From positions 29,563,616 to 29,627,615 of the forward strand of contig NC_089281.1 of NCBI RefSeq assembly GCF_963678975.1: a DNA stretch of 64,000 nt, given 5' to 3'. Position numbers and translations under genes: made by a program. Under the pieces are notes generated by a model. It had not been told where the DNA came from. It was given only the letters and a program-made list of their open reading frames with translations, and did not search any database. This document shows, piece after piece, positions 17,973-61,330 of this stretch (position 1 is the stretch's first letter; each line of letters starts with the position of its first letter). This DNA comes from Dysidea avara (Eukaryota > Porifera > Demospongiae > Dictyoceratida > Dysideidae).

Positions 17973-20900
17973 TTAAGCTGGTGTTCGCTGTGCTTGCTTT
18001 AGGTTGAAACCTCCCCCAGTAAATCTTGGCATGTCTGATTTTTGTGCAGCAATTGGAGGTGCCATAGTTTGAATCAGAGCTCTCTCTCGCTCCCTAGTAG
18101 TAGTAATGTCATTAATCCATTGACACAAAATATTACTAGATTACTTTATAGACATTTCCTTTTTCTTCTGCAGAAAATATTTCTTCTTCACTTCTTGTAG
18201 TTCCCTAGAGAGTCTCTCCACTTCAATTTTGTTGTCTGCCACATGTGATTCATACATGTTCAACTCTGATGCCATGCTCTGGGAGGAACAGGAGCAGTTA
18301 ACTTTAGATACATAGTACAGTGTCACAATACCTTCATTTGTTTAGTTTTCTCCTTCAAAGTTTGTTGATAAATTTGTAGTTGTTCGGCTACTTCTGGACC
18401 TGGCTGTCTGGCCAAAATGTGTTTTAGTTCCATGTAGAGTTTTTCTTTCTCTTGAATCAACAGTTCCTTCTCTACCACCTGTACAATACATTAGTGAACT
18501 ACACACATCAACAAGAGTTACAGAGATATGCACCTCTTCAGTTTTTTGTATTAGTCTTCGTTGTAGTGTTTGTATCTTTTGTAGCATTTCAAATGTACTG
18601 GGATCACTTCCCTGTTAGTGTGATATGATGAAATATGAAGGAGTGTGGTAATAGCACATACCTCTAGTTTTCTCCACCGATGAATGTTCATTGGGTTTTC
18701 AAGCTCTTCCTCAAGTGCTTTACATCGTGTCCTCTCCTTAAGTATCTCACGTTGCACATGATAGAGCTCTCGCCTGTCCAACACAGGTACACATCAATAC
18801 CCTACTGGCGCCTTACACACACCTTAGGTCATCCACATTAGCTACGCTCTTGGACAGGATATTCTTTTCCCTTCTCATTTTCTTAATATCAAGTTTCAAT
18901 ATCCTGATATCTTCCATTCTTTGCCTGTACTGCATTTCACCTACAATTAAACCATTAGACAAACACAATCAGGTACACCAGAGGTTATACCCTTATTCAT
19001 TGTCGATTGTTGAATTTTTATCTTCTCATATAACAAGGCCAGTTCATCGTTCCTTCGTATCAGTTGTGTTCCTAAGATATCTCTCTCATTAATGACCTGT
19101 TGAGTGTCGAACATTGAAATGTTTTCATATTAGCTTTTACCTCTTCTTACCTGCTCAAGTTCTTTTTTCTGTCTGAGACGTTCTGCATCAGCTTCATTAA
19201 TAATACTTCTTAGTTTACGCTCCTCGGCCTTCTGGCTCTCAACAAGTTGTTTGGTAGTCTCAAGCTCCTGTTTACGTGATGACAATTCACTACTCAGTGC
19301 CTCCTTTTCTCTTTCAATGTGAGTGAGTTCCATATTGCTCTTAACAAGTGCACTTTCCTGTAGGGAAATATATGAATGCTGAGTGTGTATATGTGTAGTG
19401 TGTGTGTGTGTAGTGTATATGTGTAGTGTGTGTGTGTGTGTGTAGTGTGTGTGTGTAGTGTAGTGTGTGTGTAAGCTGTGTTCAAGAATTCCTCTCTGGT
19501 GGTAGGCCAAATGATAAGGCATGTGTGTTGTCAGTCTTGTTGTTAAGCAGTGAACACTGGACACCACTTTGCAGGCAACTGAGGAAGTTGAAAAGTTTCC
19601 ACCATAGGTTGAGTATAACTGATCAACAGTAGCATATATCATCTGGTATAGTGAGGAAGATCTAGAAACCATCATACTAAGCTAAAGAAAAGTGGCTGGG
19701 TCATTTAGCACAGATTCCTAACCATCGTATCCCAAGAATTTGTTTATATGGACTAAGGTCAAGTAAGAAATGTTATTAGAGATACAGTATTTTGTTAGGA
19801 GCTAGTGATAGCGAGTGGCGTAAGGATAGGATTACATGGCAGGAAGGTGGAGTCAGTTATCAACAGGAATCTGAAGTATGATATGCAGTGTCTGTATGTG
19901 AACAATCAAAGGGAATGTGATAAAGCTCATTATAAGTGTGTTGAAGAGAGACAGTTAGCAGTGTAGTAGTGCTATACAGTGTTCCTCATGTCAGAGATGG
20001 CCTAGAAGTAAGGGGGTGGCTGTTTACATATGTGATGCAGACAGCATGGGGCAGTTCAGTGTGAGCAGTGGATATGAGTACTGGCCAGAGGTCTTGCAAG
20101 ATTGTGTAATCCACATGTATAGGTGTTATTGATTCCCCTTCAAGGGAACATGTGACCCACATGGGCAGTTAAGAGGTTGTGTGTGTGTGTGTTTGTGTGT
20201 GTGTGTTTGTGTGTGTGTGTGTTTGTGTGTGTGTGTGTGTGTGTGTGTGTGTGTGTGTGTGTGTGTGTGTGTGTGTGTGTGTGTGTGTGTGTGTGTGTGT
20301 GTGTGTGTGTGTGTGTGTCATCACCACACCTTTGAAGCAATCTCATCCTTTAGCTGGTTAATCTGGTGACTCATAATCTTCAACTTTCTTTTCATTTCAG
20401 TCATCTCATCCCTAGCCTCAATCAAGTTCTTACTACAAGCATTTCTGTCACTGCAAACTGCCTCATACAATGTCTACAGATACACACACATTCATATCAA
20501 CCACTACTGATATTAAGGTTTACTACAAACCTGTTGTTGTTTCAGTTTGCTCTCTGCTTCTACAATCTTCTTCTTAAGCTGAAATAGTTGCATTTCTTTC
20601 ATCTTCACTTCTTCCATTTGCTGCAAGCAATTCTGTGTGGCATCAGAGGCATCTTTGCCATATCGATCTCTGTCTCGTTCCAGCTGAGATATCAAGCTAC
20701 GTTGCTTCTTTGCTTCATCTCTGTAATTCTGCAAAAATAATAAAAATGAGATATATTGCATAAAACCTGCGTAACTAACTTACAGCAATTTCTTGTTGAA
20801 GATTCTTAATAGTTTGGTCATGTATTTTTACAAGATGTTCTTGCTTTTCAGTGAACCCTTCTGCCTTGCGTAGTTGCTGGAGGTATGGTTGATCAGTGGT

Positions 20901-59700: not shown

Positions 59701-61330
59701 TGTTATGTTCATTTATATCAGGAGCTTTCGGCGCGAAGGAGCGTGATACTAGTGGTTCCAACATTTGACTAATTACTTAAACCTCAGTCCATGTAGGGCA
59801 TTCATCCTATATTCACTGCTACTCAGTGGTTTATTGCATCATCACTTTTAAGCTGTTAATTTTCAAAGGAAGCCATGATGAGTCTAAGTACTTGTGTGCT
59901 ATTTGTAAACTAAAAGAGACTGAACAACTCTTAACAATGAACTAAGTAGCCATATGTTTTGTAAGCTCTCTGTGCTGTACTGAGGACCAGAAACAGAGCT
60001 GTGTTGAAATAATTCTTTTAATTACCCTACCAGTATTACTGACACTCTATGGCTGCATATTAACTGCTAGCACCTGTTAACATAACCAAGCACAGCCCAG
60101 GAAATTACTGCTCTCTTTATAAGGACATGTTTCATTAACAAAAGATAGAACACAGCTATATCCTGAGTGTTACGCTCCTTCTAAGCTCCTGTTTATATAA
60201 TAGGACTTGATTTTCATGAAGTTTGTGTTTCCATAAATTGTTATCTATCAAGTTGAAACTGTCCAATGGGCTGAAGTGTTTTCCCTTAATAACTGCATCA
60301 GGCTTCTTACTTGAGAAATTTTAACTGTTGGCCTTTCTGTAAGATGTGTTCCACAGTTTAGAATAATTGTTGTACCAATATTGATTTTGGTCAGTTAGTG
60401 CACAAACAAATTGTGTGTTTGGCTTTGAAGTTAAATATTTACAGTACACACCAGTAGTGATATCAAACATGCCAGTCTACACCATCATTTAGTTCCAAAA
60501 TGGACAGGTGTTAATTGCTATAACTAATGCATTGTATATATAGTTCCAAATGAAAATTTAGATTTTTGATAGGTATCGTAAAAGGTACAACTTTCACTGA
60601 ATGTATAGCTACATAATAGTTATACGGGCATAATGCGGAGTCTATGAAATTTATAAACCCGAAGGCCTGGGCTGTAGTGCACGAGCGAAGCGAGGGCGCT
60701 ACTAAGGGCCTGAGGGTTTATAAATTTCATAGACTCCACATTGTGCCCGTATAACTGCTTTAGACTCTATTTCACATTACACTCAGATTACTTACCTCAT
60801 CCACGGCTATTTCTGCTGTAGGCTCGGCAAAAGCGACTGGTTTTCTTACGATAATACTAGCGCCATGGCAACTATGCGTCCTTACGTGACTAAATAATCG
60901 CACTCGTTAAATCACTGCACGTGAATAATGCATAGCGATTGGACAAACCCGAATTTGAGCATATGTCATATTGTGCTTGAAGGCGTGGAGTATATTAGAA
61001 AACAAGGTGGAGTATATGAGATTTATTACCCACCCAAAACAGCCTAAATAGAGTCTAATTTGTACATATTGAGATGGTGACATGTTGAAGAGACATTAAC
61101 TGTTTAGTGAACAGTTAGCCAGCCATACACCTCTCTAAAAAGACCATTCCCTAGCTTACACAGCAACTTATCTGTGTGAATGTGAAAGTTACTTCTTGTT
61201 ACAAGTTACTTCTTGTTACAGGTCATTTTTGAGACATGTGATACTCCCATCATGCCACAAGCCAATTGGAAATGGAATGGAATGGTTTGACACCAAGGAA
61301 CACTGTTACGCTGTCAGCGATACAGTATAA
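53773..61330 (+). CDS. ZDHHC16: ZDHHC16, DHHC-type palmitoyltransferase
   Basis: Exons: 53773-53967, 55063-55254, 56409-56469, 56520-56568, 57815-57843, 57922-58055, 58616-58651, 58957-59166, 59500-59570, 61222-61330; 361 aa (human 377), phases consistent. Order: N-terminal VLERGVWLIG, two membrane segments with VFHYYMGVFTNPGNPP, a cysteine-rich domain CYQCEQPKPPRAHHCRVC then CVLKMDHHCPW (catalytic Asp-His-His-Cys at 172-175), NCVGHYNHRYF, two further membrane segments, then AETSIEVHIN, HNWRMFLGL and HVILPSCHKPIGNGMEW, which matches the ZDHHC16 C-terminus and separates it from other DHHC enzymes. ZDHHC16 (Aph2) S-acylates membrane-associated proteins at the ER/Golgi. All zinc ligands appear intact. 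It starts 170 bp after the CCT7 stop codon. Confidence 0.95.
56054..56242. mobile_element. TIR element, 189 bp (ends TACCGTATAGAGGGAAAC)
   Basis: Ends TACCGTATAGAGGGAAACTT and AAGTTTCCCTCTATACGGTA are exact inverted repeats, extending into CTTTGGCGGG and CCCGCCAAAG. Occupies the ZDHHC16 intron 55255-56408. Confidence 0.9.
56590..57490 (-). repeat. 75-bp minisatellite, array 2 (about 12 units)
   Basis: CCTCATTATAGTGACCATG recurs every 75 bp (56594, 56669 and onward) for about 900 bp. Two unit variants, AAGTAAGTCC and AAGTAGGTCC, and ATAAGACC and ATAACACC are mixed along it. It is the reverse complement of array 1. It fills most of the ZDHHC16 intron 56569-57814, starting about 25 bp from the donor. 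Confidence 0.97.
58775..58915. mobile_element. GGACAC-type MITE in ZDHHC16 intron
   Basis: Runs from AACCTGTTAATATGGACACT to AAGGTGTCCGTATTACG; inverted ends and the same internal order (CCTACATAATCCAGACACT) as 905-1035. Confidence 0.7.
59571..61221. other. Last ZDHHC16 intron, 1.65 kb, no gene seen
   Basis: Contains the hairpin element 60618-60756; the rest shows no exon I can support. The ends fit a phase-2 junction (AG|G) between 59570 and 61222. Confidence 0.6.
60618..60756. mobile_element. Hairpin element with CGAGCGAAGCGAGG core
   Basis: Arms AGTTATACGGGCATAATG and CATTGTGCCCGTATAACT with further complementarity through TCTATGAAATTTATAAACCC. The loop holds GCACGAGCGAAGCGAGGGCG, unusually GC-rich for the window. 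Confidence 0.8.

Follow-up and report, generated by a model that had tools for sequence, protein, structure and literature searches.

Why should CFAP58, ENO4, nanos, SHTN1, EBF and ZDHHC16, which lie together in the 64-kb stretch of DNA shown above, all have human counterparts at 10q24-q26? The whole of this stretch is referred to here as the window; it covers positions 29563616-29627615 of the 30.66 Mb contig C10, in a genome of 550.8 Mb and 108 contigs. A first-pass annotation of the sequence had proposed that the six genes are an ancient linkage group which retains pre-bilaterian gene order. Our analysis supports shared chromosome membership, not retained order. We consider it very probable that the window derives from a single ancestral linkage group of animals, a proto-chromosome that carried NK homeobox genes. 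Common descent is the likeliest cause of the linkage, and this origin is supported by the finding that C10 carries six of the nine further genes from human 10q24-q26 that were searched, as well as all five homeoboxes classed as NK-type.

The claim depends on the identity of the genes. Pfam and tblastn searches recognised nine genes in the window rather than the ten named families counted previously, and the six named genes were confirmed at their places by Pfam domains and collinear tblastn matches, including the position of nanos between ENO4 and SHTN1. Orthology was called by best match, and stray or low-complexity tblastn rows (two for EBF1, three for ZDHHC16 and three in proline runs of SHTN1) were dropped. 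The features of the window are as follows.

1039..7625 (ends approximate), + strand: mS39/PTCD3-like gene in open reading frame (ORF) pieces; Rib_mS39_PPR 1.5e-6.
10988..14138 (ends approximate), + strand: gene with RRM-like domains in ORF pieces, without human assignment; RRM_1 4.4e-5.
17976..23214, - strand: CFAP58, likely start codon at 23214; CFAP58_CC 5.8e-79, tblastn 33-69%, collinear.
23215..23539, no strand: CFAP58-ENO4 intergenic region of 325 bp between the start codons, with one RFX X-box-like near match.
23540..26949 (3' end approximate), + strand: ENO4, a divergent sperm-type enolase; Enolase_N 2.3e-9, Enolase_C 8.4e-6, tblastn 28-41%.
27329..28012, + strand: nanos, a single open frame; zf-nanos 4.3e-28, tblastn 70% identity to the NANOS1 zinc finger.
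28402..40441 (both ends uncertain), + strand: SHTN1; ORFs and three collinear tblastn matches at 28812-34730.
41365..44825 (both ends approximate), - strand: EBF/COE; TIG 4.4e-5, tblastn (EBF1) 28-54% at 42412-44825, C-terminal frame.
45564..53588, + strand: CCT7; Cpn60_TCP1 4e-83, tblastn 43-89% over residues 5-537.
55075..61327 (5' end not found), + strand: ZDHHC16; DHHC 1.5e-10, tblastn 33-60%, collinear.

SHTN1 is the least securely identified of the nine, because no Pfam family exists for it and its evidence is three matches to an unsourced human sequence; their identity is 35-42% and their E values run from 0.009 to 5e-8, and part of the third match is proline-rich. The role of SHTN1 (shootin-1) lies in axon growth, and a homologue is present here in an animal seemingly without neurons. 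A second PTCD3-like piece was seen about 30 kb beyond the window in the right flank (L044:9808-9897, - strand); it is 53% identical over 30 residues to its counterpart at window positions 7488-7577 and may be either a fragment or a copy that has diverged. At 13365-13736, 16139-16440, 20133-20366 and other places, repetitive frames reflect short arrays of repeats and long runs of CA/TG.

In the human genome CFAP58 is located at 10q25.1, NANOS1 at 10q26.11, ZDHHC16 at 10q24.1 and CCT7 at 2p13.2. Human members of six of the nine window genes are found on 10q24-q26 and of two (CCT7 and PTCD3) on 2p, while one gene has no assignment. For the others the location comes from the literature. SHTN1 is at 10q25.3 and a single-nucleotide polymorphism in the 3' untranslated region of ENO4 is about 100 kb away, the two genes being neighbours (PMC6305670); a single 10q26 loss covers MGMT, EBF3, GLRX3, TCERG1L and PPP2R2D (PMC4411697); the 10q26 genes include CTBP2, OAT and EBF3 (PMC13323318); and a 2p11.2-p12 deletion includes PTCD3 (PMC10742694). 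The available part of PMC7269912 yielded no human-band assignment. If 10q24-q26 holds an estimated 2% of human genes, and the three members of Nanos and four of EBF are taken into account, the probability of at least six of nine genes in this region is about 3e-8, rising to 1.7e-6 when corrected for 50 regions. With 3% of human genes the two values are 3.6e-7 and 1.8e-5. The co-location had been called far beyond chance, and these values uphold that.

Further evidence was sought on the rest of the chromosome. Human SMC3 maps to 10q25.2, NT5C2 to 10q24.32-33, XPNPEP1 to 10q25.1, GBF1 to 10q24.32, and both ERLIN1 and HIF1AN to 10q24.31. Eighteen test genes were listed before looking, and nine were searched genome-wide. 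The list was replaced by ten families (PSD, DOCK1 and ZDHHC6 being added), DHR-2, HMG_box and DHHC were then left out, and their place was taken by PPP2R2 and HIF1AN, both of them on the original list; BTRC, EIF3A, GLRX3, GOT1, PGAM1, LDB1, BUB3, SUFU, TCF7L2, DOCK1 and ZDHHC6 were outside the genome-wide search. XPNPEP1 was rerun as a single protein after its family search gave a weak match on C10. Other members of the searched families, plus enolase, served as controls, and the listed controls (EEF2 and others) were left out. Six of the nine searched genes were located on C10.

C10 14.72 Mb: XPNPEP1, 49-76% identity; weak in the family search, clear in the single-protein search.
C10 23.206-23.216 Mb: OAT, 63-72% identity.
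C10 24.996-24.999 Mb: NT5C2, 52-70% identity.
C10 26.25 Mb: SMC3, identified by eye from its likeness to human SMC3.
C10 29.748-29.760 Mb: PPP2R2, 49-87% identity.
C10 29.818 Mb: CTBP, identified by eye from its likeness to CtBP1.

Since C10 holds 5.57% of the genome bases, at least six of nine genes are expected there by chance with p 2.2e-6 (at least six of eight: 7.6e-7), and with XPNPEP1 set aside five of eight give p 2.6e-5. PPP2R2 and CTBP lie 120 kb and 190 kb beyond the window, respectively. Among the controls, the remaining seven SMC_N matches were on C4, C5, C7 and C11 (13 of 35 candidates scored), matches to 2-hacid dehydrogenase were found also on C3, C5 and C11, and the other Peptidase_M24 matches were on C4, C8 and C9. 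A six-frame Enolase_C search returned a single match, on C11; it did not pick up ENO4 itself, a divergent gene interrupted by introns. The first-pass annotation had suggested asking whether the other genes of the scaffold belong to the same ancestral linkage group, and it was the converse form of this question, where other 10q24-q26 genes lie, that was put here, with C10 as the answer for six of nine. As a separate observation, C11:24.87-24.93 Mb holds five full-length 2-hydroxyacid dehydrogenase matches with uninterrupted frames within 60 kb, plus one partial match.

The human NKL/MetaHox paralogon comprises 2p/8p, 4p, 5q and 10q, and LBX, TLX, EMX and VAX genes are found on both 10q24-q26 and 2p13 (PMC2211742). 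In teleosts the remnants of the Lbx2 paralogon include a further Nanos1 gene, next to Loxl3 and Ttc31 (PMC2446394). The arms of the paralogon hold human counterparts of all eight assigned window genes (SHTN1, ENO4, EBF3 and PTCD3, placed by papers, and CFAP58, NANOS1, ZDHHC16 and CCT7), the ninth, with RRM-like domains, being the one without assignment. The paralogon is the better frame for the gene set than 10q alone and also takes in CCT7 and PTCD3 on 2p. Homeodomain matches numbered 34 genome-wide and 11 on C10. Eleven of the 34 were classified, against reference homeodomains, and all five that proved to be NK-type were on C10.

C10 near 22.6 Mb: Msx-like homeodomain, 46 of 57 residues as in MSX1.
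C10 near 22.6 Mb: NK2/3/4-like homeodomain, 42 of 57 residues as in NKX2-5.
C10 28.44-28.46 Mb: NK6/7-like homeodomain and two Tlx- or Hex-like homeodomains.

These form two groups about 5.8 Mb apart, one of which is about 1.1 Mb away from the window; three Bar-like homeodomains were found on C7 and C9. The window resembles the paralogon in that the human counterparts of its genes are on the paralogon arms and NK homeoboxes are on the same chromosome, but vertebrates have several copies of the segment whereas here the searches suggest mainly one locus for most genes, and most window genes are not homeobox genes. The linkage of NK2/3/4-, NK6/7-, Msx- and Tlx/Hex-like homeoboxes on one chromosome likewise recalls the sponge NK cluster (PMC10719294), although the present genes stand in two separate groups. 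It is on this gene set, together with the low number of homeoboxes, that the description of the host as sponge-like is based. Of the other six homeodomain matches of C10, at 19.41, 19.46, 20.17 and 20.20 Mb, five were read and all were divergent, and two of the divergent ones (L022 and L030) are nearly identical, perhaps through lineage-specific expansion.

Simakov 2022 is said to have described ancestral linkage groups (ALGs) for bilaterians, cnidarians and sponges together (BCnS ALGs), in which orthologs share a chromosome across animals irrespective of order. The co-location of orthologs on one chromosome more often than chance, by which such groups are recognised, is what was found on C10 (six of nine, p 2.2e-6). 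The present case differs in being one 64-kb window, joined by six further genes and by five homeoboxes of NK type elsewhere on its chromosome, without an ALG letter; it is in line with the published linkage groups, and a match to one of them is what we infer. Chromosome gene content is conserved regardless of order in sponges, cnidarians and bilaterians (PMC10232365, Schultz 2023; PMC10719294), and the statistics of linkage conservation are a matter of debate for analyses that bring in deeper outgroups (PMC12728501). An ancestral proto-chromosome carrying NK homeobox genes would have become the NKL/MetaHox paralogon on human 10q, 5q, 4p and 8p/2p, which would have formed after two vertebrate genome duplications. 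Moves of genes between chromosomes are rare and inversions within chromosomes shuffle order freely, and therefore gene content survives while order is mostly lost. Retention of pre-bilaterian gene order was the part of the earlier proposal that found no support: the human genes are spread over about 30-35 Mb, two are on 2p, and nanos stands between ENO4 and SHTN1.

Several observations weigh against an ancestral linkage group. The tblastn queries were unsourced human protein sequences, many human gene positions stand without a cited source, and the genome of the window is the sole animal genome compared with human. The choice of nine among the listed genes was not fixed beforehand, and three of the nine did not add to the C10 count: ERLIN1 is on C12 in four of four matches; none of 16 Sec7 matches was on C10, so that neither GBF1 nor PSD is there (GBF1 was not singled out among these matches and was scored off C10 since none lay there); and HIF1AN had no clear ortholog among nine weak matches, three of them on C10 and the best, at 42% identity, on C14. 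A second 2-hacid dehydrogenase gene at 7.6 Mb makes this family not exclusive to CTBP on C10. Of the two Bar-like homeodomains on C7, one is almost as similar to Tlx, a member of the NK set, and PTCD3 at 2p11 is some way off 2p13, where the paralogon-defining homeobox genes lie, which makes its placement weaker. The direct form of the scaffold question, put to 100 kb on each side of the window, yielded one named gene, MRPL46, 24 kb from the window (by a human query), whose human place, 15q25.3, is outside the region. It was the sole match of 11 human proteins in the 264 kb of window and flanks, where LAMTOR1, GLRX3, GOT1, LDB1, BUB3, EIF3A, BTRC, ERLIN1, HIF1AN and XPNPEP1 had none, nor had DPYSL2 and BNIP3; Pfam searches with 10 frames from the flanks (codon-score annotation of each side) gave none at the curated cut-off.

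Could the pattern be the product of chance and generous naming? There are three human members of Nanos and four of EBF, multi-member families were matched to a region picked after the fact, and part of the human positions stand without a cited source, all of which would inflate an apparent agreement. However, four of the 10q genes have one human counterpart each and agree, the probabilities above stay low with 50 regions allowed for even under the less favourable assumption, and the chromosome test, in which six of nine genes from a list written in advance were on C10, disfavours chance further. We regard this explanation as highly improbable. Functional clustering of another origin, for example a promoter common to CFAP58 and ENO4 for sperm or flagellar expression, would suit the divergent orientation of these genes, both of them sperm/cilium genes (for ENO4 see also PMC6305670), and the single RFX-like near match at 23514-23527, 13 bp from the ENO4 start codon. 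Judged from the sequence, a shared promoter is possible. The near match carries no weight on its own, though, since the window shows no excess of X-box-like matches (8 against 5.14 expected, with as many in 17 of 100 shuffles), and an X-box-driven promoter was left as a weak candidate. The other window genes have no known common function, and clustering leaves unexplained the genes many Mb away on C10, which makes it an unlikely account of the whole.

True microsynteny would go beyond a shared chromosome: ENO4, SHTN1, EBF, PPP2R2 and CTBP, within about 230 kb at this end of the chromosome, would be an old neighbourhood whose members have stayed together, perhaps through regulatory DNA that they share. 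About 140 kb separates EBF from PPP2R2 here, and at human 8p21.2 EBF2 is next to PPP2R2A. In the gene list of PMC4411697 two genes stand between human EBF3 and PPP2R2D, the human neighbours ENO4 and SHTN1 (PMC6305670) are here one gene, nanos, apart, and the further teleost Nanos1 gene sits in the Lbx2 paralogon (PMC2446394). On the other hand, CCT7, ZDHHC16 and a Copia-like element intervene between EBF and PPP2R2; GLRX3, DPYSL2 and BNIP3 had no match in the 264 kb read, which ends about 90 kb short of CTBP; chance alone would give one shared close pair out of several at about 5% (a rough estimate); and PMC10719294 reports little microsynteny in cnidarians. We therefore hold microsynteny to be doubtful, and give similarly guarded credence to the broader idea that the last megabases of C10 are a pre-bilaterian neighbourhood of EBF, PPP2R2, CTBP, ENO4, SHTN1 and nanos, with part of the NK set 1.1 Mb off. 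The Copia-like retrotransposon itself, recognised by eye, occupies L044:5068-8908 in the right flank and has frames on both strands.

Descent from an ancestral linkage group thus remains the preferred explanation, and linkage of this kind is ordinary; novelty would be proof that particular neighbours stayed together. EBF-PPP2R2, ENO4-SHTN1 and CFAP58-ENO4 are concrete pairs where something new could lie, and if the old neighbourhood were real, human 10q25-q26 and 8p21 would still show close linkage older than the sponge-bilaterian split. The occurrence of SHTN1 in a neuron-less animal would be a useful side result, provided that the host is a sponge. A human paralogon known mainly from its homeobox genes is recognisable in no more than 64 kb of a sponge-like genome.

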